From a bacterium (GTDB lineage Bacteria > Zhuqueibacterota > QNDG01 > JAFGCO01), in contig JAFGCO010000069.1 in the NCBI GenBank assembly GCA_016932575.1, forward strand, positions 1-64,000: a stretch of 64,000 nt of DNA. The letters run 5' to 3'. Below, in pieces: positions 8,493 to 39,331 of this stretch (positions are counted from its first letter, which is position 1; the number at the start of each line of letters is the position of its first letter). A program made the position numbers and the translations under genes. Under the pieces are notes generated by a model. That model saw nothing but the letters and a program-made list of their open reading frames with translations. It made no database searches and was not told where the DNA came from.

Positions 8493-8634
8493 AGAACGTT
8501 CAGACCTCTCTGCAGAGCAGCGTGTCTCGCTGATGACCTTTGCAAAGTCCCTCCAAAACAGATAAAACCAATCAAAACCCGAATATGTTTTAAAAAACCT
8601 TAAAGCGGCGGGAAGCATTGCTCACAAAAAACCG

Positions 8635-11006: not shown

Positions 11007-11007
11007 T

Positions 11008-11634
11008 ATGAAACGGTTCTGGATGTTTTTTATCGTCGCTGGTCTGCTTTTCATGGTTTGCGGTAAAAAAGCCGTCATCCGTAAATACTATATTCTCGAA
11101 ACACCCAGGCCAATTAAAATGGCCGATTCAGTCGAAACAGTTTGCCTGCCGATCCATGTGGATATCCGGGATTTTCAGATTTCCAAAGCCATCAATCAAA
11201 CCCGGATTGCTCTGAAAACAAAGTCCCATGAACTCAATTACTATTTTTATCATCACTGGGCGGTTCGCCCATCCATAGGTACAGCGGATATGGTCTATCA
11301 GATCACCGCATATCAAAAATGTTTTCGACGTCTGGTGCGGGGATATTCCTCCCAGCCGGATTATTTCATTACCGGAAATATCCAGAACCTGGAAAGGGAT
11401 GAAACGGGCAAAAAGGTGGCGGTGCACTTTGCTGCAACATTAGAGTTGATTGACGCTGAATCGAATATCCCGCTGATTCGTCATACATTCGACCGGACAG
11501 AGCATTATACAAATCCCAAAAGCATGAACAGTTTCGCGGAAACCATCAGTTTGATTTTATATCAGGAAACCACGGCTTTCTTAAACATCATATCCGATTA
11601 CTTTAAAAAACATTCAGAGGCTGCTACCCAATGA
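11008..11634 (+). CDS. ABC-type transport auxiliary lipoprotein of the MCE system
   Basis: A 208-residue protein whose ATG lies one base after the MlaD stop. The N-terminus (MKRFWMFFIVAGLLFMVC) is a lipoprotein-type signal, though the lipobox FMVC is imperfect because valine before the cysteine is unusual. The following KYYILETPRP resembles the YYxL start of the ABC-auxiliary/PqiC lipoprotein family. Its position between MlaD and MlaE supports that role. It would be anchored at the outer membrane and bridge the MCE assembly; this is family knowledge, not visible in the sequence. Confidence 0.72.
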   Translation: MKRFWMFFIVAGLLFMVCGKKAVIRKYYILETPRPIKMADSVETVCLPIHVDIRDFQISKAINQTRIALKTKSHELNYYFYHHWAVRPSIGTADMVYQITAYQKCFRRLVRGYSSQPDYFITGNIQNLERDETGKKVAVHFAATLELIDAESNIPLIRHTFDRTEHYTNPKSMNSFAETISLILYQETTAFLNIISDYFKKHSEAATQ

Positions 11635-12746: not shown

Positions 12747-12839
12747 TATTCATGCAGAGAAAAAAAAGGCAGGGCCTCCTGAAGGCTCAGAAAATTTTAT
12801 ATTTTTCATGCATTTTTTTAATGAATGCCTTTTTAGAGG

Positions 12840-13622
12840 ATGAATTCTGATTTAAATAAATTGTATATGATTGAAAAAACCCAAAAAAACCATACTCCCA
12901 TTGTCGAGGTCACACACCTGACCTCGGGTTATGAAGATTTCAGGGTTCTGGACGATATTTCTATTTTTGCACCGGAGCACCAGATTACCATTATTCTCGG
13001 CGCCAGCGGATGCGGCAAAACCACACTGCTGAAACACCTGATCCGCCTGATCCAGCCCTGGTCCGGATCGATTCGTCTGTTCGGTCATGAAATCACCAGC
13101 CTGGACGAACCGGAATTTAATACGATTCTGAAAGATATCGGAGTCATGTTCCAAAATGGGGCGCTGCTTGGTTCTCTCTCTGTGGCAGAAAATGTATCAA
13201 TTCCTATGGAACAGCATACCAGTCTGAAAGAAGATATGATTCGCAAACTGGTAGAAATCAAGCTGGACCTCGTGGGGCTCAGGCATGCCATCGACCTGTC
13301 TCCCTCTGAGCTTTCAGGAGGTATGCGCAAACGGGCGGCCCTGGCCCGCGCCATCGCCCTGGATCCCCCGCTACTTTTCGGGGACGAACCCTCGGCTGGC
13401 CTGGATCCTGTCACTTCGGCAGGACTGGACGAGCTTATTCTGAAAATGCGCGAACAGCTCGGCATGACTGTCGTTCTGGTATCCCATGAAGTGGCCAGCA
13501 TCAACCGCATTGCCGATCATGTGGTTTTTTTGGATGAGGGCAAAGTTCTATTCTGCGGCCCGTTAAAAGAAGCGAAAACCGCCGGCATTCAAAAGGTGGA
13601 TGATTTTTTCGCCAAGGGATAA
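12840..13622 (+). CDS. mlaF: MlaF-type ABC transporter ATPase
   Basis: The ATPase of the MCE transporter, 260 residues. Motifs in order: Walker A GASGCGKTT, the Q-loop region GVMFQNGALLGSLSV, signature LSGGMRKRAALARA, Walker B LLFGDEPSAGLDP and the switch histidine in VLVSHEV. All are intact. The start is uncertain. ATG 12840 has GAGG directly touching it with an in-frame stop just upstream, while ATG 12867 lacks a Shine-Dalgarno site. A 93-base gap separates it from MlaE, larger than the other gaps of the operon. Confidence 0.92.
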   Translation: MNSDLNKLYMIEKTQKNHTPIVEVTHLTSGYEDFRVLDDISIFAPEHQITIILGASGCGKTTLLKHLIRLIQPWSGSIRLFGHEITSLDEPEFNTILKDIGVMFQNGALLGSLSVAENVSIPMEQHTSLKEDMIRKLVEIKLDLVGLRHAIDLSPSELSGGMRKRAALARAIALDPPLLFGDEPSAGLDPVTSAGLDELILKMREQLGMTVVLVSHEVASINRIADHVVFLDEGKVLFCGPLKEAKTAGIQKVDDFFAKG

Positions 13623-13687
13623 AAGGTCCCTCATCGATTTTTATTTCGCTGACCAACAAATTAAAAAAGCACACACAGTTTATACAA

Positions 13688-14650
13688 ATGACTCCATCCC
13701 ATCAACAGAAACCCATCCTCCTGATCGCCCTGGGCGGCAATACACTGATTCAAGAAGATCAGCGGGGAACAATTGGTGAGCAGCTCGATAATCTCAGAAA
13801 AACCATCCGGCAGATTGCCCGTTTATCCGCTCATTATCGAATCATCATTACTCACGGCAACGGCCCGCAGGTAGGAAATCTGCTATTGCAGCAGGAGTCG
13901 TGCGATCAGGTACCCAAACTTCCTCTGGAAATTCTGGTGGCACAGACAGAAGGCCAGATCGGGTATATGATCGAATCCACACTGGACGAGGAGTTGATGA
14001 CCATCGGCGTGAATAATAAAAAACTGGTCACACTGATCACCTATGTGGTGGTCGATCAGGATGATCCGGCTTTTCAGAATCCCACAAAACCCATCGGGCC
14101 TGTCTTTTCTGGAAAAGAAGCCAAAAACCTTGGTTATCCGACCATCAAAACCAAAAAAGGATATCGACGTGTGGTGGCTTCTCCGAATCCGGTTACGATC
14201 ATTGAAAAAAGAGAGATCCGCACATTGATTGATCTGGATTTTATCATCATCTGCTGCGGAGGAGGCGGGATCCCTGTCATCCGGGACGGCCGGGGATTTC
14301 ATGGTGTTCATGCAGTAATTGACAAAGATCTGGCCAGTGCCTGCCTGGCTCAGGAAGTGAATGTGGATATTTTCATCATCACAACGGATGTCGCAGGTGC
14401 CATGATCCGCTATAATCAAAAAGATCAAACCCTGCTGAAACAAATATCCGTCAAAGAAGCCGAGGCATACATCCGCAGGGGACATTTCAAGGCAGGCTCT
14501 ATGCTTCCAAAAATGACCGCTTGTACCCGATTTATTCACGGGGGCGGAAAACGGGCCATTATCACTTCAACTGAAGCCCTGGAAGAGGCTGTATTAAACA
14601 CGGATGTGGGAACGCAAATCGTACCCGAACAATCAACGCCACCCGTATAA
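13688..14650 (+). CDS. arcC: Carbamate kinase
   Basis: A 320-residue amino-acid-kinase-fold enzyme that makes ATP from carbamoyl phosphate and ADP in arginine, agmatine or purine fermentation. Typical motifs are present: LIALGGNTL at the start, THGNGPQVGNLLLQ, a QTEGQIGY segment and CCGGGGIPV in the middle. No arginine deiminase or ornithine carbamoyltransferase gene is nearby, so the pathway is not shown here. It starts 65 bases after MlaF on the same strand; no terminator was seen between them, so read-through from the Mla operon is possible. There is no clear Shine-Dalgarno site before ATG 13688. Confidence 0.93.
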   Translation: MTPSHQQKPILLIALGGNTLIQEDQRGTIGEQLDNLRKTIRQIARLSAHYRIIITHGNGPQVGNLLLQQESCDQVPKLPLEILVAQTEGQIGYMIESTLDEELMTIGVNNKKLVTLITYVVVDQDDPAFQNPTKPIGPVFSGKEAKNLGYPTIKTKKGYRRVVASPNPVTIIEKREIRTLIDLDFIIICCGGGGIPVIRDGRGFHGVHAVIDKDLASACLAQEVNVDIFIITTDVAGAMIRYNQKDQTLLKQISVKEAEAYIRRGHFKAGSMLPKMTACTRFIHGGGKRAIITSTEALEEAVLNTDVGTQIVPEQSTPPV

Positions 14651-14688
14651 TATGATCGCGCACATGGCTACTGCCCAAAAAGGAAAGG

Positions 14689-16245
14689 ATGAATTTCGTG
14701 AAAACGACATTCAGGATCAATATATTATGCATGCTGATTTCGACGCTTCTTTTCAGCGGAAGCCGTATCCCGGAACCGGTCACCCCTCATGCCTCCCGGG
14801 AGGCCCGGGCGTTATTAAAGCTGCTTTATGATATTTCCGGAAAATACACGCTGACCGGGCAGCATAATTACCCAGACACCCGGGACAGAAACTCGCAGTT
14901 TGCATCAAAATATATCGGGAAAACACCGGCTGTCTGGAGCACGGACATGGGATTCGCCGAAGAGGGAGATACAGACTCTTATCTGGCACGTCCGGACATC
15001 GTTGAAGAGGCCAAAAGACAGCATCGGATGGGATCGATCATCACCATCTGCTGGCACGCAGTGCCTCCCACCTGGAATGAGCCTGTTACATTTCAACCCC
15101 GGCCCGGTGTGGGCTCTCCGGATTCATTGGCCAGTGTGCAGGGGCGGCTTCTGGACCGGCAGTTCAGGGATGTGCTGACACCCGGAGCCGAATTGTACAA
15201 CCGCTGGGTTGCCCAAGTTGACTCGGTTGCATTTTACCTGAAAAAGCTTCAAAAGGCCAACGTGCCGATTTTATGGCGCCCCTATCATGAAATGAACGGC
15301 GATTGGTTCTGGTGGGGAGGCCGTCAGGGTAAATACGGCACGCAGGCGCTTTACAAACAGCTGTTTGACCGGTATGTAAATTATCACCGGATCAATAATC
15401 TCCTATGGGTATGGAGTATGGATCGCCCGAACAAACCGGAAATGTATTTTTCGCTTTATTATCCGGGTGAAGACTATCTGGATGTCGCCGCACTTGATGT
15501 ATACGGCAGTGATTTTAACCAGGCCTATTATGACAGTTTAATGATCCTTGCGGACGGGAAACCGCTCATCCTGGGAGAGGTGGGCAATCCACCAGGAACA
15601 GAAGTTCTGGACATGCAGCCCGACTGGATTCTCTATGCAACCTGGGCCGGCATGGTAAGGAACACATTAAAAAACCAATACCAGATTTTAATGAAAGATC
15701 CGCGCATCCTCAGTCTTGAGGATCCGGCATATCATAAAATCATGGCCCCCTTTCGCTCAGCGTGTCAATTGTCTCCATTGCCTCTGACATCAGACAAAGA
15801 ACCGGTCAATTTTTCAGGAAACTGGGTGCTTAATGAAAATAAAAGTGTTTTGGATAATCGGGGAACGAGTTATCTGCCGTATCAGCTGGCAATCACACAG
15901 ACGGAAAATGAGCTTGCTCTTCAAAAGGCATTTATACTGGAATGGGGAGACAAACAGATCACTGATGAAAAATGGACGCTCGATGGCAGAGAAATCCGAT
16001 CTGAAATGTGGAATTTCCCCAGGGTGACAACCGTAAACTGGTCAGCGGATGGGAATTCCCTGATGATTGAATCAAAAATCACCTTTCACCGGGGAAACCG
16101 GACTTCGGAATGGCTTATCAACGAAATCTGGAGCTTAAAGGAACAGGGCGATATTCTGTCTATTGAGCAACTCTCGGAATCATTCCGGGGTGACAGAAAA
16201 ATTACAATGATTTTTGACAGAATCAACTGCCTGATCAATCAATGA
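14689..16245 (+). CDS. Secreted glycoside hydrolase family 26 (beta-mannanase-like) with C-terminal lipocalin-like domain
   Basis: A signal peptide (about residues 4-24) is followed by a GH26 (beta/alpha)8 barrel at about 35-350. The acid/base is Glu201 in WRPYHEMNGDWFWW and the nucleophile Glu297 in LILGEVGNPP; both strongly mark GH26. The C-terminal 130 residues (from FSGNWVLNENKSVLD) are a small beta-barrel module, lipocalin-like. Substrates of the family are beta-mannans, sometimes beta-1,3-xylan. The start could be ATG 14689 or GTG 14698; the AAAGGA site is better spaced for the GTG. A FucP-like transporter gene converges on it from the other strand, so uptake of released sugar is plausible. 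Confidence 0.9.
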   Translation: MNFVKTTFRINILCMLISTLLFSGSRIPEPVTPHASREARALLKLLYDISGKYTLTGQHNYPDTRDRNSQFASKYIGKTPAVWSTDMGFAEEGDTDSYLARPDIVEEAKRQHRMGSIITICWHAVPPTWNEPVTFQPRPGVGSPDSLASVQGRLLDRQFRDVLTPGAELYNRWVAQVDSVAFYLKKLQKANVPILWRPYHEMNGDWFWWGGRQGKYGTQALYKQLFDRYVNYHRINNLLWVWSMDRPNKPEMYFSLYYPGEDYLDVAALDVYGSDFNQAYYDSLMILADGKPLILGEVGNPPGTEVLDMQPDWILYATWAGMVRNTLKNQYQILMKDPRILSLEDPAYHKIMAPFRSACQLSPLPLTSDKEPVNFSGNWVLNENKSVLDNRGTSYLPYQLAITQTENELALQKAFILEWGDKQITDEKWTLDGREIRSEMWNFPRVTTVNWSADGNSLMIESKITFHRGNRTSEWLINEIWSLKEQGDILSIEQLSESFRGDRKITMIFDRINCLINQ

Positions 16246-16270
16246 TGCTTTATTTTGATTACAGACTCTC

Positions 16271-17605
16271 CTATGATTCATTCCGGGCAGCGACAATGCC
16301 ATAATAAACGATTACGACAAAACAAATCAGCGGCAGTACAAAAGAAGCCCGTGTGCTGGAAAGGGTCATAAAACCGAGATTAAATGTGTTCTGATCCATA
16401 ATATAGGCCTGCAGGGGCGGCATAATAGAACCGCCGCCAATGGCCATGATCAGTCCGGCTGCCCCCAGTTTTGCATCTTCACCCAGTCCCTTAAGCGCAA
16501 TGCCGTAAATTGTAGGAAACATCAGAGACATACAGGCAGATACAGCCACCAGACAATATAAACCGGTCATTCCCTGCAAGAATATGGTTCCGAGAATCAG
16601 CATCCCGCCGCAAGCTGCCAGTGTCGACAGGAGTTTTCCGGGACTGATATATCTCAACAGATAAGTACAGATAAACCGGCTGGTGCAGAATATGGCCATG
16701 GCAACAATATTGTATCCCTGCGCCTGTTCAGCTTTCATTCCCAGTTCATTTTCAGCGTACTGAATAATAAAGGTCCAGCACATGATCTGAACCCCCACAT
16801 AAAACGCCTGTGCCAGCACGCCCTTCATATATTTTTCATTGGCAAACAGCCGTTTTAAAGTGGGGCCGAGATTCAGATGGCTCCCGCCTTCACTCTGCCG
16901 TTTAGGAAACCTGGACACGAGAAATACTGCAAGAACAATCAGCACAATCACGCCAATGGCCACATAAGGTCCTTGCAGAACAGCAAGGTCATGTTTCTGA
17001 ATCATTTTTAATTGTTCCGGAGCAGTCTCAAGCAGGAGGCGGCGTCCTTCTTCATCGGTTTCATCCAGTCTGGCCAGGATCAGTTTTTGAGCCACAAACA
17101 TGCCGGTAAGCGACCCGATTGGATTAAACGACTGAGAAAAATTCAATCTCTGCGTTGCGTTGTCCACCGAACCCATGGACAGAACATAGGGATTGGAACT
17201 GGTCTCAAGAAAAGACAATCCGCATGTCAGAATAAAATATGAGATTAAAAAGACAGAGAATGCCATCATCGAACCCGCTGGAATGAACAGCAGCGCGCCC
17301 GATGCATAGAGAAATAATCCCAAAATAATTCCCGCTTTGTACGAAAAACGTCTTATAAACAGAGCGGCCGGAATCGCCATCACGCAATAACCGCCGTAAA
17401 AGGCAAACTGAACCAGAGAACTCTGAAAATGACTGATGAGAAGAATTTTTTTAAAGGCCGCCACCATGGGATTGGTCACATCATTGGCGAATCCCCACAG
17501 TGCAAATAACGAGGTCACCAGGATAAATGGCCAAATAATATGACGGGGAATCAAAGGCGACCGATCCTGACTGGTGTTTTGATGATGATTTGACGAAGTC
17601 GACAT
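16271..17605 (-). CDS. FucP-family sugar:proton symporter (MFS)
   Basis: A 444-residue major facilitator with about twelve membrane helices, in the L-fucose/glucose-galactose transporter family. Helix 1 holds SLFALWGFANDVTNPMVA, a strong family marker, and later come QFAFYGGYCVMAIPA and FLETSSNPYVLSMG. ATG 17605 is chosen over ATG 17620 because AGGA is 6 bases upstream of it. It probably imports a hexose, 6-deoxyhexose or disaccharide; the exact sugar is not readable. It lies next to a dehydrogenase gene on the same strand, 136 bases apart, in a sugar-use cluster with a LacI regulator. Confidence 0.9.
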   Translation of the reverse strand: MSTSSNHHQNTSQDRSPLIPRHIIWPFILVTSLFALWGFANDVTNPMVAAFKKILLISHFQSSLVQFAFYGGYCVMAIPAALFIRRFSYKAGIILGLFLYASGALLFIPAGSMMAFSVFLISYFILTCGLSFLETSSNPYVLSMGSVDNATQRLNFSQSFNPIGSLTGMFVAQKLILARLDETDEEGRRLLLETAPEQLKMIQKHDLAVLQGPYVAIGVIVLIVLAVFLVSRFPKRQSEGGSHLNLGPTLKRLFANEKYMKGVLAQAFYVGVQIMCWTFIIQYAENELGMKAEQAQGYNIVAMAIFCTSRFICTYLLRYISPGKLLSTLAACGGMLILGTIFLQGMTGLYCLVAVSACMSLMFPTIYGIALKGLGEDAKLGAAGLIMAIGGGSIMPPLQAYIMDQNTFNLGFMTLSSTRASFVLPLICFVVIVYYGIVAARNES

Positions 17606-17741
17606 ATGCTTTCCTTTCATGATTCAATACCAACAGTAACAACGGACCTGAAGAAATGGCGCTGTGTAAAAATGTGTAATCCAGTAACAGACGGTTGATT
17701 TAATACGACCATTTTATCCGTATTTATAACTCATATTCAGA

Positions 17742-18806
17742 TTATCCGTTTGTCTTTGCGGAATGCATTTTCAGCAGGACTTTTACATATTTATCCGGAT
17801 GTTTTTCCAAGAGAGAGAACGCATGCTGGGTTTCGTTTCCTGAAAACTCTGCGGAGATCATCGCATCCGGCTGGAGGCGGCCTGCCTGCAGATGCTCTAT
17901 CGCCTGCTTAAATTCTCCGTGGCTCACTCGTGAAGCGATAATTTTTGCCTCTTTCCAGATCAATTCCTTCGTCAGTATAGAAGAAGGAATATCTCCCAAT
18001 CCCAGCACGCATACCGTACCCGCCCCCCTGATACTTCGCACGCATCCCTGAACCGGATTCGGGCGGTCCGGAACCGGGACTGCATGTCCGACGGCCTCAA
18101 AGGCGGCATCCACACCCCGGTCATTCGTCATTTCCCGGATGACCGACACCGGATCCTGAGTACTCGAATCAATGGTCACAATGTCCGGAAAGGCCTGCTT
18201 CGCCATGGCAAGACGCTGCGGCAGCACATCGATACAAAAGATCAAACTTTCTGTGATGGTTCGTGCAGCCTGAAGAATGCTCTGTCCAATTCTGCCCGTC
18301 CCCCAGATGGCAACCGTATCACCCTTTTTCAATTGCGCCCGGTTGCAGGCATGAAATCCAATACTGTACACCTCGACCAGGGCAGCGTTCCTGTATGAGA
18401 TCGTCTCCGGAATCCGGTACAGGGTGGTTTGGGGGACTGCGACATACTCGGCGAAGCCCCCATCCATATCGATGCCGATCAGTTTCAGGGAGGAGCATGC
18501 AGGATAATGTCGGATTTGACACGCGGCACATGCGCCGCACCAGACAATGGGATCAACAACCACACGATCCCCTTTATTGTACTGATGAACATGTTTACCT
18601 GCTTTGACAATCATCCCGCTGAACTCATGTCCCGGAATCAGAGGAAGCCGGGTGCGCGGTGAAAAATCTCCGTGATAAAGATGCATATCGCTCCCGCATA
18701 TCCCGGCATAAGCAACCTTCACAAGCACTTCGTCGTCTTTGACAGAAGGATCGGGAACTTCCTCCCAAAGCAGGCGCCCGTATTTTTTTAAGACTGCAGC
18801 GTGCAA
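17742..18806 (-). CDS. Zinc-dependent medium-chain alcohol/polyol dehydrogenase
   Basis: A 354-residue NAD(P)-dependent dehydrogenase of the sorbitol/threonine dehydrogenase group. Catalytic zinc ligands are in AGICGSDMHLYHG and PGHEFSG. A structural-zinc cysteine set is in CGACAACQIRHYPAC (spacing 2, 2 and 7). The Rossmann motif is VAIWGTGRIGQSI. The start is TTG 18806, with AGGA about 6 bases upstream; no ATG is available nearby. Position between the sugar transporter and the LacI regulator suggests oxidation of an imported sugar or sugar alcohol. The substrate is unknown. Confidence 0.88.
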   Translation of the reverse strand: MHAAVLKKYGRLLWEEVPDPSVKDDEVLVKVAYAGICGSDMHLYHGDFSPRTRLPLIPGHEFSGMIVKAGKHVHQYNKGDRVVVDPIVWCGACAACQIRHYPACSSLKLIGIDMDGGFAEYVAVPQTTLYRIPETISYRNAALVEVYSIGFHACNRAQLKKGDTVAIWGTGRIGQSILQAARTITESLIFCIDVLPQRLAMAKQAFPDIVTIDSSTQDPVSVIREMTNDRGVDAAFEAVGHAVPVPDRPNPVQGCVRSIRGAGTVCVLGLGDIPSSILTKELIWKEAKIIASRVSHGEFKQAIEHLQAGRLQPDAMISAEFSGNETQHAFSLLEKHPDKYVKVLLKMHSAKTNG

Positions 18807-19013
18807 TTGAATCCTGTTTTGTTCATATTATAAATACAACAATGACATATTGAGCTACAAAATACGGCAACAATATGTATTTATCAATATTAAAATGACG
18901 GCTCTTCGATCAATAACAAAATCCCGGTAAAACCCCAAATAAAATACGTGCCCCGATAAATAGTGAATGTGTTGTTAAGAATCCGCCGGAACTTCGTATG
19001 GAACAGAGATTTT

Positions 19014-27509: not shown

Positions 27510-29545
27510 ATGATGTGGAACAGACTTATTTTCACAATGATCATACTGATCCTGGCTGGCAGGGCAGATACAGCCACATCTGCCAGAGGCCCAGCGCCTT
27601 TCGATCCTGAGAAGGCCCTGAAGCTTGCTTCCCCGGACGGCAAGAATGTCATCCAATTTATGCCTGTGGACGGCAATCCCATGTACAGCCTATCGCGGTC
27701 CGGCCAGAAGATTATTGAACCGTCCGCCATGGGTTTTTCATTTAAAAAAGAGAGCCGCTCATTAGGCAAACTCGAACTGCTCACTGCCGGCATCTCAAGC
27801 ATGGATGAAACCTGGCGGCAGGTATGGGGAGAAAAACAGGAAATACGCAATCACTGTCACCAGTTGTCTGTTTCTTTGCGGGAAAAAAACAGTACCCGCC
27901 GGATTCTGAACATTGAATTTCGTGCGTATAATGACGGCATTGCTTTCCGCTACCTGTACCCGCAGCAGGGAGAAACCGACCTGGTTATCATGGATGAACT
28001 GACCGGGTTCAACCTCGCAAAAGATGGTCAGGCCTGGTGGATCGGCGCTTATCAGGACAACCGTTATGAATACCTCACCAGCAAATCTGCTGTCAGTTCC
28101 CTGAACAAGGTGCATACCCCGCTTACCATTCAAAGTGACAGCGGACTGTTCTTCAGTTTTCACGAGGCGAGGCTGGTCGATTTTGCCAGTATGACGCTGG
28201 CGCGTACGGAAGGCCATCACCTTAAGGCCGACCTGGTTCCATGGGCAGATGGTGACCGGGTCAAAACCGACGGCAGTTTTACCTCTCCCTGGCGCACGCT
28301 GCAAATTGCCGAGAAACCCGGCGATTTGATTACCTCTTATTTAATATTGAATCTGAATGATGAAAATATTCTTGAGGACATCTCCTGGATACATCCTTAC
28401 AAATATCTTGGCATCTGGTGGGGCATGCATATCGGTAAATTCACTTTCTGGGAAAGTCCGACACAGGGTGCAACCACTGAAAATGCCTTTGCTTATATCG
28501 ATTACTGCGCAGATTTCGGTATCGATCATTTATTGATTGAAGGCTGGAACAAGGGCTGGACGCCCGCATGGTATCAAAATGCCATGCATCGGTTCAGTTT
28601 TACCGAAGAGGCCGACGGATTCGACCTGAAAACGGTCACTGATTATGCAAAAGAAAAAGGCGTGAAAATGATCGGTTATCATGAAACCGGCTCCAATATT
28701 ATCAATTATCTGGAACAGATAGACGCCGGCATGTCGCTGTATCAGTCTCTGGGGATCCATGACATTAAGATCGGCCAGGTCGGTCCCCGGCTGAACATGA
28801 AAGAATGGCATCACGGCCAGTTCGGTGTTCAGTACTATCGTGAGGTTCTGAAAAAGGCGGCCGGGCATAAACTGACGGTCAATTTTCATGAGCCGATCAA
28901 GGATACAGGCGAGAGCGGCGCACTTATCCGAACATGATGTCGCATGAAGGCGCCAGGGGTCAGGAATATAACGCTTGGAGCGAAGGCAATCCGCCGTCAC
29001 ATACCGCAACAATTCCGTTCACACGGATGCTGGCCGGACCGATGGATTTTACTCCCGGTGTGCTGGATGTGGGCATATCCCAGGGATATGAAGGAAGAGA
29101 TGTACACACGACAGCGGCCAAGCAGCTTGCATTGTACGTGGTGCTGTATTCACCGATTCAGATGCTTGCCGATTTACCGGAAAATTATGCGGGCCACCCG
29201 GCATTCAAATTTCTGCAAGATATCCCCGTCGATTGGCAGGACACGAAAGTGCTGAATGCGGCAATCGGTGAATATATGACAACTGTGCGAAAAAACCGTC
29301 ACAGTGAGGACTGGTATCTGGGCAGCCTGACCAACGAAAAGCCACGGACATTGAAGATTGCATTGTCATTTCTGGATCCAGGCGCCGAATATCAGGCAAA
29401 AATATATGCGGATGCCGAAGGGATTACCTGGAACAGAAACGCCGATAAAATGGCTATTTCACAAAAAACAGTCACAGAGCAGGATACCCTGACACTGCAA
29501 CTCGCCCCGGGAGGCGGCACAGCCATTCGGTTTGCCAGGCAGTGA
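27510..29545 (+). pseudogene. GH97 alpha-glucosidase (SusB-like) split by a 2-bp frameshift
   Basis: Two frames together make one GH97 protein of about 675 residues. The first (27510-28937) carries the signal peptide, the N-terminal beta-sandwich and most of the barrel (LGIWWGMHIGKFTFW, MIGYHETGSN, VNFHEPIKDTG). The second (to 29545) continues with MMSHEGARGQEYNAWSEG and the C-terminal domain. At 28911-28915 the sequence GAGAG should be GAG: removing one GA gives GERRTYPNMMSHEG in frame, which fits the family. Glutamates in HETG, HEPIK and QEYNAW fit the inverting, calcium-dependent branch. The gene is either inactive or has an assembly error here. Start ATG 27510 has AAGGA upstream. Confidence 0.85.
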
Positions 29546-30560: not shown

Positions 30561-30648
30561 GATGGTTTTGTGTAAGTGAGGAATGGTTGTTTTGTTTTAT
30601 ACAAATCAAGTTGGCCATAAATCCATTGAATTTAAGGAGACATTGACA

Positions 30649-32772
30649 ATGAAATTACCGTATAAATATATCGCGACCGTATCTGTTATATGTGTAATTT
30701 CACAAGCAGTAAATGCGCATCATTTTTATTGGAGTTCAGTAGAAGGCATTTGTGGCGGAAGTGTCTGTACGATTACTGAAACCGAAGAAGGCAGTCTGTT
30801 TGCCGGCACAAAAAATGGAATATATTATGCGGAAGACAAAACTGGATTATGGAAATTTAAAGGATTGGCAGATAAGTGGATTTATTGTCTGATACAAAAT
30901 GAATCCGGGTATCTTTTCGCCGGGACATTCAGCGGCCTCTATCGGTCGAAAGATATGGGAACCACCTGGAAAGAAATCAAATCCGGCAAATATTTATGGG
31001 TAAGGGATATCATTATAGGTAATGATAATAAACTCATTATGTGTTCTGATTACGGTAATTTTTATTCAATGGACAATGGAGACACATGGGCTGAAATCGA
31101 TTCATTATCGATGCCTGTCAGTACTTTATTCAATTTTCAAAATCAATATATTATTGCAGCATGCGGGGATAATGGAATATACAGATCCTGTGATAATGGG
31201 GTTTCCTGGCAAAAAACAATTGATATTTTTCCTGCAATGTTTTCCATCACGAGTGATTTAACAGGCAGACTTTGGGCCGGCTGTTGGGGAGGTTTTGTAT
31301 GCTTTTCAAATGACTCAGGGGAAACGTGGTCAAGACTGAATCACAATATGGAACTCGGTCATGTGAATGCCTTTACAATGAACGCTGAAAATCATTTAAT
31401 ACTGGGCGATGAAGAGGGTCATGTCTATGTATCAAGAACGTCAGGACAGACCTGGGAAAATCGTCTGACAATATATGAAAGTATTAACTGTATAATCGTT
31501 GATGAAGAAGGATATATATTGACTGGAACAGATGGAGCGGGAATATATTATTCGAAGAATGATACTTCCTGGGATCAAAGCATCAAGGGCATGAATAATT
31601 ATACAATCACTGTACTTGTTGCAAATTCAGACAATCAACTCTATGCGGTCAAAAGTCCGGATTTTTACAGGTATGATGGCACATCTGAATATTCCAATTT
31701 GTTTGATAAAATATATCGTTCAAGGGACAATGGAATGACTTGGGAAAAAATATCATCGACCAGCTATGTGATAAACGATTTAATCAACCATCCGAATGGT
31801 TCCATGTTCGGAGGGACCGATAACAATGGTATTATATGTTCCGAAGACAGTGGAAAAACCTGGTCAGTTGTTGGAGGAGAAAGCTGGATTTCAATCAGCA
31901 AGTTGGCAATCAATTCAAATGGTGAATTATTTGCCGGAATCGACGGATTCAATTATGGCGGAATTTATTATTCTTCCGATAGCGGAAAGACATGGGTCGA
32001 GAAATCGGATGGCCTTCCAAATGCGGGTATTGATAATTTAATTGTCGATCATGACGATAAAATTTTCGTGTCATCATGGTTCGGAATTTATAAAAGTATC
32101 AATCATGGAGATTCATGGGAACAATGTTTGGATCATGATTCATACGGTACCACGATAACGATTTCACAAAATAATGACATTTATATTGGGAATAGCGAGG
32201 GGAAACTGCTTAAATCAGAAGATCATGGTATTCACTGGTATGAAATAGAACTGAATTCTGATGTTTCAAAAATCAATTCAATTAAAATGACTGATGATAA
32301 TCAACTGTTTTTAGGTACAGATAACGGAATATATATATCAAACGACCATGGGATCTCCTGGACAATGTGTAACAAAAATTTACCCTTTAATGAAATTGAC
32401 TGTATTGAATTATTATCATCAGATCAAATTTTAATCAGTGTCAGAGGAAGCGGATTGTATGTATCTAAAATTGAAACCAATATCAATACTGATTTAAATA
32501 CAGAAAAAAGGGATTTTCATTTACTTCAAAATTATCCTAATCCATTTAATCACTCAACAAAAATCAGTTATTATTTATCAGAATCCGGAAATGTCAGTTT
32601 AAAAATATATAATATTTCAGGGCAGGTAATACAAACATTGATTCATGAATATCAGGTATCAGGTGAATATAAAATAAACTGGGATTCAAATGGATTGCCA
32701 AGTGGAATCTATCTTTATGAATTGAAGACCGACGCAATTTCTGAAACAAATAAATTGATCATTCATAAGTAA
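30649..32772 (+). CDS. Secreted BNR/Asp-box beta-propeller protein with sorting domain
   Basis: A 707-residue protein with signal peptide MKLPYKYIATVSVICVIS; the start is set by AAGGAG 9 bases upstream. Many Asp-box-like repeats follow, for example SMDNGDTWAEI, SSDSGKTWVEKSDGLP and SNDHGISWTMC, forming one or two propellers (about 30-610) of the sialidase/sortilin/YCF48 kind. No sialidase catalytic residues were recognised, so a binding role is more likely than hydrolysis. The end is a sorting domain ([18 protein letters not shown]). The base composition is more AT-rich than most neighbours. Confidence 0.8.
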   Translation: MKLPYKYIATVSVICVISQAVNAHHFYWSSVEGICGGSVCTITETEEGSLFAGTKNGIYYAEDKTGLWKFKGLADKWIYCLIQNESGYLFAGTFSGLYRSKDMGTTWKEIKSGKYLWVRDIIIGNDNKLIMCSDYGNFYSMDNGDTWAEIDSLSMPVSTLFNFQNQYIIAACGDNGIYRSCDNGVSWQKTIDIFPAMFSITSDLTGRLWAGCWGGFVCFSNDSGETWSRLNHNMELGHVNAFTMNAENHLILGDEEGHVYVSRTSGQTWENRLTIYESINCIIVDEEGYILTGTDGAGIYYSKNDTSWDQSIKGMNNYTITVLVANSDNQLYAVKSPDFYRYDGTSEYSNLFDKIYRSRDNGMTWEKISSTSYVINDLINHPNGSMFGGTDNNGIICSEDSGKTWSVVGGESWISISKLAINSNGELFAGIDGFNYGGIYYSSDSGKTWVEKSDGLPNAGIDNLIVDHDDKIFVSSWFGIYKSINHGDSWEQCLDHDSYGTTITISQNNDIYIGNSEGKLLKSEDHGIHWYEIELNSDVSKINSIKMTDDNQLFLGTDNGIYISNDHGISWTMCNKNLPFNEIDCIELLSSDQILISVRGSGLYVSKIETNINTDLNTEKRDFHLLQNYPNPFNHSTKISYYLSESGNVSLKIYNISGQVIQTLIHEYQVSGEYKINWDSNGLPSGIYLYELKTDAISETNKLIIHK

Positions 32773-33029
32773 ATTTTGACTGATAACTGGGGGAAGTAAA
32801 TTTACAATAGGGAAAGGAAAAATCACAATGCCACAATAGATAATCATGAGTGCAATAATCCGGACAGCATTCGGTATTTTTGATGAAATGATTAAATTTT
32901 TGTCATAATTTGAAACAATTGCTTTTTTCTGCCGTAAAATTTAAGTAACTTAAATAAAGCACTCTTCTCTCTTTCAGCACAGAGAGGCGGTGCATGGTGT
33001 TGAATAACTCCAACCACTAGGAGGCGATC

Positions 33030-35156
33030 ATGCAAGATCAAGATCAATTCGACACCACGATGGAAGAGCAGGCATTTGCGGAAGAACCGCAAATGGAGAA
33101 AGAAGATTTACAACCTGTTGAGGAAACGGACGCAGAGGAAGAAACCGTTCTGCGTTCAGATCCTGCTATTGTGGTGAAGAAAGACGACGCGGTAGTTTCC
33201 GAACACACACTCGAAAACTTTCCTGTCCGAATCGGACGAAAATCAACCAATCACATTGTGCTCGACGAAAAAAATGTTTCCCGCCAGCATGCGCAGATCG
33301 TAATGAAAGACGATCAATTTTTCATTGAGGATTCGGGAAGCACAGGCGGCACAAAAGTTAATGGCGAACCGGTAACTGAAAAAGATATTCATACCGGTGA
33401 CCGCATCGAGATCGGTTCGTTTCAGCTTCATTTCAATTCGGGTATTCCTGAAGACGAACGCACCATCTATGATGCGGACGATCAGACCATGCTCGAAGAA
33501 GGCACGGAGCTGGATGAAGAACGAACCCTGTTTTATGAAGAACCTGTCGCCAAACTGATTGTCGATCAATGCGATTCCCTGGAAGGCGAATTTTCTCTGG
33601 AAGAGGAGGAAACCACTCTGGGCCGTGACGAAGAAGCGGATATCACCATCGATGACAAACGGATATCCAGGCAGCATTGTAAAATCTCTGTGAACGAAGA
33701 AGGGAATTACACCCTGACAGATCTTGGCAGTTCCAATGGTACATTCTTGAACGGCCAGCGCATCGCAGAAAAAGTTCTGGAACACGGGGACCATATCCAG
33801 ATTGGCTCCAGCCGGTTCAGTTTTTCTCTGGAAACACCAGCTCAGCCGGGCAAGAAACAAATCATGCACCCCGTGATGAAGGGAGCCATTGCTGTTTTAG
33901 GCGTTGCAGCGCTCATTTTTGTCGCAATTAAAATCGTGCCGCAATTTCAAACTCCCGAACCGCAAAAAGTGATTCTTCAGAAACTCTGGGAACAGTCCAC
34001 CATCACATCCGTCACATCCTCACCAAGTCTGGGAGATGTGAATGGCGATGGATATATGGACATCGTGACTTCAGATATAAGCGGCCGTGTCTATGCCATG
34101 GACACGCGTCAGGGAGGATCCATCTGGAACGCAACTTTAAAAACAAATGGCGGACCCCATCTCTGCTCACCCCTGCTGGCGGATATCAACAAAAGCGATG
34201 GCGAGTTTGATGTGATTATGGCCACATCCACACAGGGAGTCTGGGCGATTGACGGTGCAACCGAGCGGCGCATCTGGAAGGGTGTGCTGGACAGTGCCGT
34301 ACCCGGAACTCCGGCTGCGGCAGACATCAACAATGACGGCACATCGGACATCTTCCTGGGTACAAAGCAAGGCACACTCAGCTGCTATGACGGGCGCCAG
34401 GGGGGTGTTGTATGGAAAGTATCTCTCAATGCGATGCTGCAAACCTCCCCGCGCCTGGCCGATTTGAATAAAGACGGTTATGCGGATGTCGTAATTGGGG
34501 CCAATGATTACAGGATTCATGCGTTTGACGGGAGGAACGGTCAAACCATCTGGGTGCATGTGGGTACACATTTGCCTTCAACAGCGGCTATCGCAGACAT
34601 GAATGACGACAATATTCCCGATGTGGCGATTGTCACGCCGGCTGAAGCCATTGTTCTTGAAGGCGAGACCGGATCGGCCCTGTGGCGCTGGTCAGTGCCT
34701 CAAACTGCGCGTCCGACATCCATGGATCCCTTTCAACCGTTTCCTCCTGCCATATCAGACCTGAACCGCGACCGTATCCCGGATGTGATTGTATCCACTG
34801 CAGGCGGTCATGTTTATGCCATTAATGGTGCCTCACAAGGTGCATCCTATATCTGGGATTATGGTGTCACTGCGTCGCGAAAAACAGCACCAGCTCTGTA
34901 TGATTTGAACCGTGATGGCGTGTCCGATGTGATTTTTGGGGATCCTGCGGGCAATTTAACCGTGGTTGACGGAAGCACCGGGCATCAATTGAATCAGATC
35001 AATGTAAACGGCAGTATCGTTGCAGCTCCGGTCATTGCAGACCTGAACGGCAATGGAACCGCGGATATTGTTGTCGGCACAAAGAACAAAAAGATTGTGG
35101 CCGTTCAGACAGAATCTTCCGTGGGAAAAAATCAAATCGTTTGGAATTCCTTCTAA
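33030..35156 (+). CDS. Membrane protein with two FHA domains and an extracytoplasmic beta-propeller
   Basis: A 708-residue protein with an excellent Shine-Dalgarno site (AGGAGG). Residues 1-55 are acidic, with threonines. FHA domain 1 (about 65-140) has FPVRIGRKSTNHIVL and VSRQHAQI. FHA domain 2 (about 190-275) has TLGRDEEADITI, ISRQHCKI and GSSNGTFLNG. A single transmembrane helix follows at about 287-306 (GAIAVLGVAALIFVAIKIV), preceded by basic residues, so the FHA side is cytoplasmic. Residues 320-708 hold eight FG-GAP/PQQ-like units (for example ADINNDGTSDIFLG) forming a propeller outside the membrane. FHA domains bind phosphothreonine. The next two genes encode a PP2C phosphatase and a Ser/Thr kinase, the obvious partners. 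Confidence 0.88.
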   Translation: MQDQDQFDTTMEEQAFAEEPQMEKEDLQPVEETDAEEETVLRSDPAIVVKKDDAVVSEHTLENFPVRIGRKSTNHIVLDEKNVSRQHAQIVMKDDQFFIEDSGSTGGTKVNGEPVTEKDIHTGDRIEIGSFQLHFNSGIPEDERTIYDADDQTMLEEGTELDEERTLFYEEPVAKLIVDQCDSLEGEFSLEEEETTLGRDEEADITIDDKRISRQHCKISVNEEGNYTLTDLGSSNGTFLNGQRIAEKVLEHGDHIQIGSSRFSFSLETPAQPGKKQIMHPVMKGAIAVLGVAALIFVAIKIVPQFQTPEPQKVILQKLWEQSTITSVTSSPSLGDVNGDGYMDIVTSDISGRVYAMDTRQGGSIWNATLKTNGGPHLCSPLLADINKSDGEFDVIMATSTQGVWAIDGATERRIWKGVLDSAVPGTPAAADINNDGTSDIFLGTKQGTLSCYDGRQGGVVWKVSLNAMLQTSPRLADLNKDGYADVVIGANDYRIHAFDGRNGQTIWVHVGTHLPSTAAIADMNDDNIPDVAIVTPAEAIVLEGETGSALWRWSVPQTARPTSMDPFQPFPPAISDLNRDRIPDVIVSTAGGHVYAINGASQGASYIWDYGVTASRKTAPALYDLNRDGVSDVIFGDPAGNLTVVDGSTGHQLNQINVNGSIVAAPVIADLNGNGTADIVVGTKNKKIVAVQTESSVGKNQIVWNSF

Positions 35157-35173
35157 AATTAAATACATTTTGA

Positions 35174-35229
35174 GGGATAGCGCGATATCCTTTTTCTTTG
35201 AAAGAGGATATCTGTGCTATCCCCTTTTT
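35174..35229 (+). terminator. Large hairpin with T-run between the FHA gene and the PP2C gene
   Basis: Two-part stem: GGGATAGC (35174-35181) pairs with GCTATCCC (35216-35223) and GATATCC (35184-35190) with GGATATC (35206-35212), around a 15-base loop, followed by CTTTTTA. It has the form of an intrinsic terminator, but it stops just before the Shine-Dalgarno AAGGAG of the phosphatase gene. It may therefore act as an attenuator that lowers expression of the phosphatase and kinase relative to the FHA protein. Confidence 0.7.
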
Positions 35230-35243
35230 AAAGGAGCCCTGTT

Positions 35244-36041
35244 TTGAGCAATGATATGACACTCGATTGCTATGCGGTCACGGACAAGGGATTACGGCGG
35301 CGTCTGAATGAGGATTCATATGTGTGCAGGCCTGATGTCGGACTTTTCCTGGTAGCCGATGGCATGGGCGGTGAAAGTTGCGGTGATGTGGCCAGTCAAT
35401 TGACAGCAACCGTTTTTAAAAACAGTATCACACCCTATTTGATAGATGAAGAAGCAACCATTCCTTTTGAACATACGAATGAGAATGATTTACTCATGAA
35501 TGCGATGGGGCATGCTGCTGAGCAGACCAATCAGGCGGTACTCAGATCCGTGAAAGAAAGCCCTTCATGCCGCGGTATGGGATCGACCCTGACTGCTGCT
35601 ATTCTGCACGAAGGATTGATCTATATCGTGCATGTGGGAGACTCTCGCTTATATGAATATGAAAACGGTTATCTCGATCTCATCACAGAAGATCATACGC
35701 GTGTTCAGGAATTGGTAAATAAAAAAATACTCTCACCGGAAGAAGCGCGCACACATCGTGAGCGCCATATTATCACACGATGTGTCGGAAGAAAAAAACA
35801 GTTCAGGCCCGACCTGTTGAAGTTGGAGTATCTACCGGGCAATCTTTATCTTATCTGCAGCGACGGTCTTTATGACATGATGGATAATGATACAATGACC
35901 GAAATTATTGCGGCAAATACAACCCTTGAACAGATAGGGCAACAGCTTGTGGATGGCGCCAATAAAAACGGGGGGAAGGATAATATCACGATCGTCCTTT
36001 TCCGGCAGAAGTCTGAAAACAGCGATGGAGAGTTTGACTGA
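35244..36041 (+). CDS. PP2C-family protein serine/threonine phosphatase
   Basis: A 265-residue metal-dependent phosphatase of the Stp1 type. The motifs appear in order: RRRLNEDSY, VADGMGGES, RGMGSTLTAA, HVGDSRLYEYENG, TEDHTRVQELV, CSDGLYDMMDND and GKDNITIVLF, so the metal-binding aspartates are intact. TTG 35244 is the likely start because AAGGAG lies 7 bases upstream; the first ATG (35256) is too far. The 3' end overlaps the kinase gene by 17 bases, indicating coupled translation. Its likely substrates are the kinase itself and the FHA protein upstream, by analogy with PknB/PstP systems. Confidence 0.93.
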   Translation: MSNDMTLDCYAVTDKGLRRRLNEDSYVCRPDVGLFLVADGMGGESCGDVASQLTATVFKNSITPYLIDEEATIPFEHTNENDLLMNAMGHAAEQTNQAVLRSVKESPSCRGMGSTLTAAILHEGLIYIVHVGDSRLYEYENGYLDLITEDHTRVQELVNKKILSPEEARTHRERHIITRCVGRKKQFRPDLLKLEYLPGNLYLICSDGLYDMMDNDTMTEIIAANTTLEQIGQQLVDGANKNGGKDNITIVLFRQKSENSDGEFD

Positions 36042-37233
36042 GTTGAGTCCAAAAAAGACGAAAAAGAAACTGGGAAAATACGAAATCGACAGACAGATCG
36101 GTAAAGGCAGCGCGGCCAACATCTATCTGGCTGAACAGGATTCTCTCGGAAGAAAACTTGTAATTAAAGAGCTGCTGCCCCTGTATGCATCAAATGAAAA
36201 GATCATTATACGCTTTCAGCGAGAAGCCAAACTCATTTCCCAGCTTTCACACGAAGCCATTATTCACATTTACGATTATTGGGTGAAAAACAATTCCTAT
36301 TACATCGCAATGGAATATGTTCCCGGACCTCATCTGCGAAAAATTCTGTCCACGGTGCATCATGTGCCCGTTCATATCGCTGCCCTGATTATTTATCAGA
36401 TATCCAGGGGGCTCGAACATGCTCATAAAAACGGTGTGGTCCATCGTGATTTGAAACCCGCCAATATCATGATCTCGAATCTGGGGCAGGTGAAAATTCT
36501 TGATTTTGGCGTGGCTCATTTCCAGGCGGAAGAGAATCTGACGGCACTGGGCGCTGTACTCGGCACCTACCACTACATGTCACCTGAACAGGCCCTGGGT
36601 AAAAAGGTTGCGCCCGCATCTGATGTGTTCTCTCTGGGCATTCTGTTTTACGAATTGTTAACAGGAATCAAACCCTTTTCAAAAGATGACAACGGGGACG
36701 TGATCGAAAAAATCGTGCATAAAAATGTGCGGTCGGTACGGAAAATCAATCCGGCTGTACCCAGATCGATCGACCGCCTCATAAAAAGATGCCTGCGTAA
36801 GAATATCAAACGGCGGTTTCAGGATGTGGATCAGATCAAATTAAAACTTGAAAAATATCTGAAGCGCTATTCGCTTGATCATAATGCCATTCTGAAAACC
36901 TATCTGGACAACATTGCACCGACACCGCCTGACCCGCATTGGCCTCCCGGTCTCGGTAAAAGAATCCGATACCGTCTCACCCATCAAAAAGTCGGAACCT
37001 ATTTTCTCTGGTTCTTGATCATGGCGGGTATTGTTTACGGCGAGAAACATTTATTGTCTAAAAACATAACCCTCGCCGATCAATGGAAAACTGCAAGAGA
37101 TTTCACGGTCTCATTATGGCATCAGGTGGTCCCACCAAAATCGAAACCGGCAATTCACCAAGAGACAGCATCTGAAGCAGGAGAAGAACAATCAGTAATT
37201 TCACCGCAAGATTCAACATCCTTAATAAACTAA
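36025..37233 (+). CDS. Hanks-type Ser/Thr protein kinase with C-terminal transmembrane helix
   Basis: A protein of about 402 residues. Kinase domain (about 18-285): GKGSAANIYLAEQ glycine loop, lysine in LVIKELLP, HRDLKPANIM catalytic loop, DFGVAH, an activation segment ending GTYHYMSPEQA, and SDVFSLGILFYELLTG. All essential residues are present. A transmembrane helix lies near the C-terminus (TYFLWFLIMAGIVYG) and the short outside tail is Ser/Pro/Glu-rich without PASTA repeats. The frame is open back to 35947, but ATG 36025, overlapping the phosphatase stop, gives the natural start. It forms an operon with the phosphatase. Confidence 0.92.
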   Translation: MESLTELSPKKTKKKLGKYEIDRQIGKGSAANIYLAEQDSLGRKLVIKELLPLYASNEKIIIRFQREAKLISQLSHEAIIHIYDYWVKNNSYYIAMEYVPGPHLRKILSTVHHVPVHIAALIIYQISRGLEHAHKNGVVHRDLKPANIMISNLGQVKILDFGVAHFQAEENLTALGAVLGTYHYMSPEQALGKKVAPASDVFSLGILFYELLTGIKPFSKDDNGDVIEKIVHKNVRSVRKINPAVPRSIDRLIKRCLRKNIKRRFQDVDQIKLKLEKYLKRYSLDHNAILKTYLDNIAPTPPDPHWPPGLGKRIRYRLTHQKVGTYFLWFLIMAGIVYGEKHLLSKNITLADQWKTARDFTVSLWHQVVPPKSKPAIHQETASEAGEEQSVISPQDSTSLIN

Positions 37234-37401: not shown

Positions 37402-38778
37402 ATGACAAAAAAAATAAATGCTCTTTTGTCTTTTTGTATTTTGCTCACAATCCCGATTTTGGCGCAATGGTCAAAGGCAGAAATGGAACGCATCAGCAGG
37501 CTGAATAACGAAGACCATCAATTGATGATGAAGAAGCTGGGGATAACGGAACTGCGTCCCGGTCCTTCAGCCAATCCTGATGCACCCAATGCCGCCAATG
37601 CCGATGAGGCAAAAGCTGCGCCTTATACTTCATTACCGGATCCGCTCGTATTTAACGACGGCACTGCGGTTGAAACAGCTTTGCAGTGGAAAAAACGCAA
37701 ACTCGAAATCTTTGAAGATTTTGACAGAGAAATAGTCGGACGGCTTCCCTCTGAAACACCGGCCGTCTCCTGGAAAGTGGTCTCTGAAAAAGACACAATG
37801 ACCGGAGACCGCCCTGTCACCACAAAACAGCTTGTCGGGCGTGTGGATAATTCGGTATACCCGGCAATTTCCGTGGATATTCAAATGACGCTTACAACTC
37901 CCCGAAATCATGCCGGACCTGTGCCGGTCATCATGGAATTCGGCTGGATGCTTCCAAAGGGCTGGAAAAGTCCATCGCCGGACGGCCCGACCTGGAAGGA
38001 GCAGGTGCTGGCAAAGGGCTGGGGTTATGCCATCTTAATTCCCACCAGTATCCAGGCGGACAACGGTGCCGGACTTCGGGAAGGAATTATTGGACTGGTG
38101 AACAAGGGGCAGCCTCGAAATCTGGACGACTGGGGCGCTTTGCGTGCCTGGGCATGGGGTGCAAGCCGGGCCGTCGATTATTTTAAGACGAATCCCGATG
38201 TCGATGAAACGCGTGTGGCCATTGAAGGCCTGTCAAGATACGGCAAAGCGGCCCTCATCGCTTTGGCTTATGAGCCGCGGATTGCGATCGGATTGATCGG
38301 TTCATCCGGAGCCGGAGGCGCCAAAATACTGCGCCGCATTTTCGGGGAACAGGTGGAAAACCTGGCGTCATCCGGAGAGTACCACTGGTTCGCTCCCAAC
38401 TTTATAAAATATGCGGGCCCGTTGACGGCGCAGGATTTACCGGTTGATGCCCATGAACTGATTGCTTTATGCGCTCCAAGGCCGGTTTTTATCAGCGTGG
38501 GATCGCCTGATGTGGAAGGGACATGGATAGATGCCAGGGGAATGTTTCTTGCAGGCGTTCACGCCGGTCCGGTGTACGAACTTTTGGGAAAAAAGGGCCT
38601 CGGTGTATCGGAATTTCCTCCTCAGGAAACGGCCATCATCGAGGGAGATATTGCATTTCGGCAGCATGCCGGCGGCCATACTGTCGGTCCCAATTGGCCG
38701 GCATTTATCCAATTTGCCGAAAGATATTTTATTAAAAACCGTCCTTCGGTAAATGAAAAGGGACACAAGACGAATTGA
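37402..38778 (+). CDS. Secreted CE15-like (glucuronoyl esterase) hydrolase
   Basis: A 458-residue exported enzyme with signal peptide MTKKINALLSFCILLTIPILA; AAGGAT precedes ATG 37402, so the upstream open frame from 37312 is not needed. The nucleophile serine is in IEGLSRYGKAALIA, matching the G-x-S-R-x-G-K motif of CE15. SGAGGAKILRR and the histidine in HAGGHTVGPNW also fit. CE15 enzymes cleave esters between lignin alcohols and glucuronoxylan. I prefer this over acetyl xylan esterase because of the Arg after the serine. It lies just after the signalling cassette but is probably transcribed separately. Confidence 0.82.
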   Translation: MTKKINALLSFCILLTIPILAQWSKAEMERISRLNNEDHQLMMKKLGITELRPGPSANPDAPNAANADEAKAAPYTSLPDPLVFNDGTAVETALQWKKRKLEIFEDFDREIVGRLPSETPAVSWKVVSEKDTMTGDRPVTTKQLVGRVDNSVYPAISVDIQMTLTTPRNHAGPVPVIMEFGWMLPKGWKSPSPDGPTWKEQVLAKGWGYAILIPTSIQADNGAGLREGIIGLVNKGQPRNLDDWGALRAWAWGASRAVDYFKTNPDVDETRVAIEGLSRYGKAALIALAYEPRIAIGLIGSSGAGGAKILRRIFGEQVENLASSGEYHWFAPNFIKYAGPLTAQDLPVDAHELIALCAPRPVFISVGSPDVEGTWIDARGMFLAGVHAGPVYELLGKKGLGVSEFPPQETAIIEGDIAFRQHAGGHTVGPNWPAFIQFAERYFIKNRPSVNEKGHKTN

Positions 38779-38863
38779 AAAAATAAATTCAATCGGACAT
38801 CATTTTTCTGTTCCTCAGCCTCAAAGGTTTGAAGCAAAAACATTCAAAGAAGGAGATCAAATA

Positions 38864-39331
38864 ATGCCTCAGCTCGTCAAAGGGGGCAAATATGTATTCG
38901 GCTGGTCTCATGTCTCAGACTCAGGAAAAATACGCATTCCGGAGGAAGCACGGGACGAATACAACTTACTACCGTTTGATAAAATCATTATCATGAGCGG
39001 CAGCAGAACATCAAAAGGATTTTCTGTCACAAAAACCGATCTGATCAAAAAATGCGTGATTTACAGGAAATTGTCAGCATATAAGGATTTAATCCGTTTT
39101 CAGGAATTACCGGATGGGTACATACAGGAGAAAGATAAAGTATTCACATGGTCTGAAATTGATAGGAAAGGTTATTTTAAAATAAGTAAGGATATTTTAT
39201 ACCGGTATCATGTGAATCCGGGAGAAAAGGTACTGGTCGGCAGAGGCAGCGGTTATGCTCTGGCTTTTATAAAGACGGGATCGATTGTTAAAGAAGCGTT
39301 AAAACATCCGGAATTGACTGTCTATGCATAG
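38864..39331 (+). CDS. Tandem SpoVT/AbrB-like DNA-binding-fold protein
   Basis: A 155-residue protein. ATG 38864 is chosen, with AAGGAG 9 bases upstream. The N-terminal half has KGGKYVFGWSHVSDSGKIRI then PEEARDEYNLLPFDKIII, the swapped-hairpin pattern. The C-terminal half repeats it: VFTWSEIDRKGYFKIS and ILYRYHVNPGEKVLVGRGSG. Two such units in one chain would make a single AbrB-like barrel. Proteins with the MPQLVKGGKYVFGW start occur in methanogens and Firmicutes, I believe, without known function. It could be a transcription regulator or an antitoxin; no toxin gene is adjacent. Confidence 0.65.
   Translation: MPQLVKGGKYVFGWSHVSDSGKIRIPEEARDEYNLLPFDKIIIMSGSRTSKGFSVTKTDLIKKCVIYRKLSAYKDLIRFQELPDGYIQEKDKVFTWSEIDRKGYFKISKDILYRYHVNPGEKVLVGRGSGYALAFIKTGSIVKEALKHPELTVYA

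Follow-up and report, generated by a model that had tools for sequence, protein, structure and literature searches.

Three co-directional genes at positions 33030–37233 of the window (the whole stretch of 64,000 nucleotides analyzed) encode an FHA protein (gene 1), a PP2C-type phosphatase (gene 2) and a Hanks-type kinase (gene 3). A first-pass annotation had read them as one transmembrane signaling system, in which an outside propeller on the FHA protein senses and the FHA domains read or relay the kinase signal. The locus raises two questions: whether the three genes belong together, and which part a membrane-spanning FHA protein plays beside a kinase and a phosphatase. The features are listed in Table 1.

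Table 1. Features of the three-gene locus (positions refer to the window).
Feature	Position	Strand	Evidence or remarks
FHA-FHA-TM-propeller protein (gene 1), 708 aa	33030..35156	+	ATG 33030; Shine-Dalgarno-like GGAGG at 33020-33024
FHA1, residues 51-137	33180..33440	+	keeps the GR and SRxH motifs
Acidic inter-FHA linker, residues 138-172, candidate phosphoacceptor segment	33441..33545	+	predicted disordered; invariant T145, T153, T166
FHA2, residues 173-267	33546..33830	+	canonical pThr-binding motifs all kept: GR, SRxH, SSNGT
Transmembrane helix, residues 281-306	33870..33947	+	hydropathy, AF2 model
Eight-unit FG-GAP/PQQ-like propeller, residues 317-708, BamB-like fold, predicted periplasmic	33978..35153	+	Pfam, AF2 model, Foldseek, motif count
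Terminator-like hairpin (35174-35223) and T run	35174..35229	+	folding; kept in G006 and G042
PP2C-type Ser/Thr phosphatase (gene 2), Stp1/PrpC family, 265 aa	35244..36041	+	TTG start, AAGGAG upstream; no TM segment
Hanks-type Ser/Thr kinase (gene 3), 402 aa from ATG 36025 (or from TTG 36043)	36025..37233	+	HRDLKPAN, DFG, activation-loop Thr present
Short C-terminal kinase membrane anchor, residues about 323-339	36991..37041	+	position kept in type A orthologues; hydropathy weak

Conservation of the three genes

Relatives were sought with alignments in 82 genomes of the phylum and in two samples across the domain, each of slightly fewer than 400 genomes; a scan of named genomes, which used patterns from a single sequence, found one relative. 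Full-length relatives of the FHA protein are present at about 15 loci in three phyla and comprise two ancient types, A and B. Wherever the contig allows, a PP2C gene, a kinase gene or both are adjacent. The order FHA–PP2C–kinase was observed in G000, G006 (locus L037), G042, G002, G196 and G333, and the loci of G001 and G388 are consistent with it up to the contig ends. The close relatives within the phylum (G006, G002, G001 and G042) have PP2C and then kinase in identical order, with the G001 contig ending after PP2C. In a second phylum the trio is present in all three species examined (about 40% identity). Close orthologues of the kinase (E ≤ 1e-70) are found only in genomes that have the FHA gene or, in G043, at a contig edge. 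The FHA gene of G064 sits on a 4-kb contig, with no neighbors identified there. Matches in G209, G316 and G454, which are propellers of large proteins and do not cover FHA, were set aside, as were several FHA-only matches.

Type B cassettes are larger and consist of a two-FHA-TM-propeller protein, a PP2C and a large kinase (G065, G056, G196, G411 and G279; partial in G333 and G388). The three type B kinases scanned by Pfam have PEGA domains, and so has the PP2C of the type B copy in G196.

The trees of the three genes agree with each other (r = 0.935, 0.947 and 0.960), and none of 2000 permutations gave values as high. Each trio sorts with its own type, A or B, even in G196, which has both. 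Tree correlation alone could reflect shared species history, but this is insufficient here because each G196 gene sorts with its own type. Loci L054 and L056 of that genome are type A and type B cassettes, each with its own FHA-propeller protein, PP2C and kinase. Judged by their sequences, the two types are an ancient duplication of the whole unit.

Gene 1 of G042, a genome outside the order of the window's host, is 68% identical to the window copy, compared to 54% for G002 from the same order. Genes 2 and 3 of G042 likewise rank closer than those of G002, and transfer of the whole cassette is suggested by this agreement of all three genes. G042 (locus L047) and G043 (L088) are two species of one genus, and both are closer to the window copy than G002. 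In G043 the kinase alone was seen, at a contig edge and with two in-frame stops in the match. The trio was likely transferred horizontally.

In the host genome (4.4 Mb, 94.5% complete) the two FHA domains of gene 1 are the only FHA matches and gene 2 is the only PP2C_2 match. Three further Hanks kinases are present, all in one distant cluster (L041, positions 7588–18867 of G000 contig 68). They are close-set and differ in their C-terminal parts, which by eye are sulfatase-modifying-like plus hydrolase, TPR, and ATPase plus TPR. These kinases may share the PP2C of the cassette, since the genome has no other FHA or PP2C_2-type gene.

Three common signaling genes might also be adjacent by accident, and such adjacency is not rare: M. 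tuberculosis has FHA genes in clusters with genes for kinases and phosphatases (PMC1262709). The partners are kept across families and three phyla, they sort by type and their trees are congruent. These comparative data refute a chance arrangement, which retains hardly any probability. As the first-pass annotation had supposed, the FHA gene is not unlinked in relatives, and the trio looks like one functional cassette, long co-inherited and apparently a self-contained signaling unit.

Architecture and topology of the FHA protein

Pfam matches two FHA stretches in the gene 1 product (E 2.1e-44) as well as FG-GAP, FG-GAP_3 and PQQ_2 in its C-terminal half. There are eight calcium-type FG-GAP motifs, with first residues 335, 384, 431, 477, 522, 576, 624 and 670. 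The AF2 model (mean pLDDT 81) is composed of FHA1, a disordered linker (residues 143–171), FHA2, the single strong hydrophobic helix and the propeller from residue 317. Pfam, helix, model and motif count thus agree on the architecture that had been read from the sequence at first pass. FHA2 has OdhI and GarA as its best PDB sequence matches. In FHA1 of all type A members, GG stands in place of the usual NG in the S-x-NGT loop, and this change may weaken pThr binding.

Basic residues (GKK, MK) are located on the N-terminal side of the helix. Therefore, the FHA domains are predicted to be cytoplasmic and the propeller to lie outside the inner membrane. Nine Omp85-family places over the curated cut-off were found in the host genome, and a protein encoded beside the cassette has a T9SS C-terminal sorting tail. 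Thus, the host is a diderm and, given its outer membrane, the propeller is predicted to be periplasmic. The extracytoplasmic position assumed for the propeller is retained, whereas sensing at the cell surface, also considered at first pass, is ruled out. Among named relatives, a 'candidate division KSB1' MAG is the nearest (76% identity).

The nearest solved fold of the propeller, by Foldseek on the AF2 model, is BamB (TM-score by target about 0.8, about 17% identity). At this low identity, fold alone is common to both, not function. The propeller may bind a ligand and act as a sensor. It is perhaps not the sole input, since type B kinases bear PEGA domains of their own. FG-GAP/PQQ propellers are common protein-binding modules. 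The propeller could thus also be a structural envelope module, docked in the manner of BamB on a further periplasmic protein; it would then have no extracytoplasmic ligand, and the phospho-system would control how an envelope machine is assembled. BamB itself is a periplasmic scaffold propeller, and the Fha proteins of T6SS are assembly scaffolds (PMC5995506). However, the match to BamB is a likeness of fold at low identity, and the cassette has no conserved machine genes next to it. A purely structural propeller is a serious possibility, if probably not the correct description, and it is compatible with the phosphorylation module proposed below.

Phosphatase and kinase

The PP2C is matched by Pfam (E ~1e-10) and belongs barely within the Stp1/IreP family of NCBIfam (NF033484, 232.3 bits with a cut-off of 230). 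The kinase is matched by Pkinase (PF00069, E 3.6e-57). Its HRDLKPAN and DFG motifs, K48 and E67 are invariant in type A, which identifies it as Hanks-type, and so are Thr173 and Thr181 of the activation loop.

The two genes had been described as overlapping. Their adjacency is real, but the large overlap (kinase start at 35947) is a longest-ORF artefact, as conserved kinase sequence starts at about 36025 or at 36043. An ATG at 36025 is matched in G042 and leaves an overlap of 17 nt; a TTG at 36043, one base past the PP2C stop, is matched in G006 and leaves none.

The membrane anchor of the kinase is a short helix that is kept in position in type A orthologues but has weak hydropathy. The tail past it has roughly 60 residues and no recognizable sensor domain. 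No PASTA repeats were found in the kinase by Pfam, and the score for NF033483 (300.4 bits) is below the cut-off of 450. A propeller is not part of the kinase polypeptide either, which ends with this tail. The outside module is thus carried by the FHA protein behind its TM helix, not by the kinase, in accordance with the first-pass annotation.

Invariant threonines in the inter-FHA linker

The FHA domains are connected by the linker GIPEDERTIYDADDQTMLEEGTELDEERTLFYEEP, which is predicted to be disordered (pLDDT about 30 in the AF2 model). Its mean pairwise identity among six orthologues is 0.62, compared to 0.60 for FHA1, 0.53 for FHA2 and 0.51 for the propeller. The other disordered parts of the same six proteins reach 0.26 (N-terminus) and 0.18 (juxtamembrane).

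T145, T153 and T166 are invariant across two phyla. T159 does not vary within the phylum; G196 has a deletion at this site. Five of the 52 threonines of the protein are invariant, three of them in the linker and two in FHA1, so that three of four are invariant in the linker and two of 48 elsewhere (Fisher p = 0.0018). Inside the linker, the higher conservation of threonine compared to other residues is only suggestive (p = 0.06). Two of the threonine sites have a repeated [DE]-[RK]-T-[VIL]-[FY] setting; after T166, the aliphatic residue is replaced by R in two sequences.

Because of these invariant threonines, the FHA protein looks like a substrate of the kinase as well as a reader, which amends the role of reader and relay assigned to it previously. 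Type B FHA proteins have no Thr-rich linker, and the GR motif of FHA1 is lost in the rows aligned. A phospho-switch in the linker is therefore maybe specific to type A.

Alternatively, the FHA protein might be a receptor and adaptor, as in the first-pass annotation, and the linker a spacer or docking site and not a substrate. The FHA domains of the receptor would then bind the autophosphorylated kinase, for example at its activation loop, and a ligand on the propeller would bring the kinase closer to its targets or take it away from them. The two invariant activation-loop threonines, the type A kinase without a sensor domain of its own, the canonical FHA2 and the persistence of the trio in type B, where the Thr-rich linker is missing, are all consistent with such an adaptor. 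It leaves unexplained the three invariant threonines of a disordered linker and its conservation on a par with the FHA folds, and is considered rather unlikely.

Intergenic hairpin and neighboring genes

The hairpin between genes 1 and 2 has a stem of 23 pairs and a T run behind it (-35.4 kcal/mol, z -7.0). It was found by folding; the terminator scan did not list it, probably owing to a bulge. Equivalent hairpins are present at the same location in G006 and G042 (z about -5). Among these three sequences, three pairs are altered on both sides, each in one sequence, and the covariation term is about zero. No hairpin was found between the FHA and PP2C genes of G196 and G333, and in G001 these genes overlap. 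The hairpin at this place in G002 is very strong but a different one, without a clear T run (L038, positions 9110–9252, GCAAAGCAATCTC ... GAGATTGCTTTGC, z -8.1), which may be a mobile palindromic repeat.

The element of the window looks like an intrinsic terminator or attenuator and would give more FHA protein than PP2C and kinase. A promoter scan upstream found 12 candidates, with 8.3 expected.

The genes flanking the cassette vary from locus to locus, and no conserved fourth gene was seen beside it across the compared loci. Directly 5' in the window (30583–32772) lies the gene of the protein with the T9SS sorting tail. It is of the sortilin/BNR type, and its propeller belongs to other families than FG-GAP/PQQ. 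Further upstream (27510–29545) the reading frame of a GH97 glycosidase is broken into two, of 475 and 203 aa, which overlap at 28934, and its catalytic domain is cut in Pfam (166 of 275 positions). Either a real frameshift or an assembly error accounts for the split. Positions 38753–39331 encode a protein of 192 aa without a Pfam match. By eye, it has two tandem short units, WSHVSDSGKIRIPEE and WSEIDRKGYFKISKD, reminiscent of AbrB-type domains.

Comparison with known systems

In Rv1747/PknF/PstP, the phosphorylated FHA–linker–FHA module of a membrane protein condenses reversibly in vitro; the kinase promotes this and the phosphatase reverses it (PMC9312465, PMC3908365). Like the gene 1 product, Rv1747 resides in the membrane and has two cytoplasmic FHA domains at its N-terminus, a disordered linker between them and a kinase gene in the same operon (PMC9312465, PMC3908365). 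Gene 1, too, lies beside a kinase gene. Rv1747 carries an ABC transporter (NBD and TMD), whereas the cassette protein has a periplasmic propeller, one TM helix in place of a multi-helix TMD, and no NBD match in Pfam. Unlike in Rv1747/PknF, the phosphatase gene is inside the cassette.

PpkA–PppA–Fha1 of the T6SS consists of the same three component types (kinase, PP2C and FHA protein), and in P. aeruginosa the FHA protein is a substrate of the kinase at Thr362 (PMC5995506). The T6SS Fha is cytoplasmic, whereas the cassette protein is transmembrane with a propeller. Its score for the TagH model TIGR03354 (98.6 bits) is below the cut-off of 120.25, and no T6SS parts were recognized among the annotated immediate neighbors.

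GarA/OdhI are phosphorylated by PknB/PknG on threonines of their own, beside the FHA domain, at a conserved ETTS motif (PMC8546545), and act via an intramolecular switch according to Nott 2009 as cited there. They are soluble single-FHA metabolic regulators, while the cassette protein has two FHA domains and a TM helix and scores below the cut-offs of the family models (NF041660, 121.5 vs 200 bits; NF049868, 118.3 vs 125 bits).

PknD of M. tuberculosis ties a six-bladed propeller outside the membrane to a Ser/Thr kinase (PMC3322341). PknD has kinase and propeller in one polypeptide, whereas the FHA protein of the cassette supplies in trans a propeller of eight FG-GAP/PQQ-type units. The cassette resembles the PASTA kinases (PknB/StkP) with Stp1/PrpC in that the PP2C, an Stp1 model match, adjoins a membrane kinase, but its kinase has no PASTA domains. 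As each compared system fails at least one defining feature here, the layout is regarded as a variant of known systems. The open-licence PMC literature on FHA with FG-GAP or propeller and kinase yielded no description of this layout.

Proposed mechanism and significance

Co-inheritance of the trio, a membrane-spanning FHA protein with a predicted periplasmic propeller, and invariant threonines amid acidic residues in the disordered linker between its two FHA domains can be read directly from the sequences. The best overall explanation, and a reasonably probable one, is a dedicated module for reversible threonine phosphorylation at the inner membrane, with the FHA protein as both substrate and reader. 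The membrane kinase would phosphorylate T145, T153 and T166 of the linker, and presumably also T159. The protein's own FHA domains could bind the phosphothreonines in cis, giving a switch like that of GarA/OdhI, or those of neighboring copies could bind them in trans, which would lead to clustering as in Rv1747. Possibly, the kinase is also recruited via its phosphorylated activation loop. The PP2C would strip the phosphates off the linker. The periplasmic propeller would input a signal or anchor the assembly to an envelope partner and so alter the placement or clustering of the FHA protein. The hairpin after gene 1 may let this scaffold exceed both enzymes.

A more far-reaching view is put forward only tentatively and is doubtful as it stands. 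The cassette may represent a class of split transmembrane receptors, in which a periplasmic propeller controls the pThr-driven clustering of a separate membrane scaffold, and this scaffold is a substrate, a reader and also the platform on which its own kinase and phosphatase act. Such a module would be ancient (types A and B), occur in at least three phyla and have been transferred in one piece.

Little is known of the signals and substrates of bacterial Ser/Thr kinases, a problem that the cassette narrows. Its adjacent genes encode a kinase, a phosphatase, a likely substrate with four named threonines and a likely input domain, as a circuit of three proteins. The layout of the cassette, in which the pThr reader and not the kinase carries the periplasmic propeller, is kept as a unit across distant phyla.
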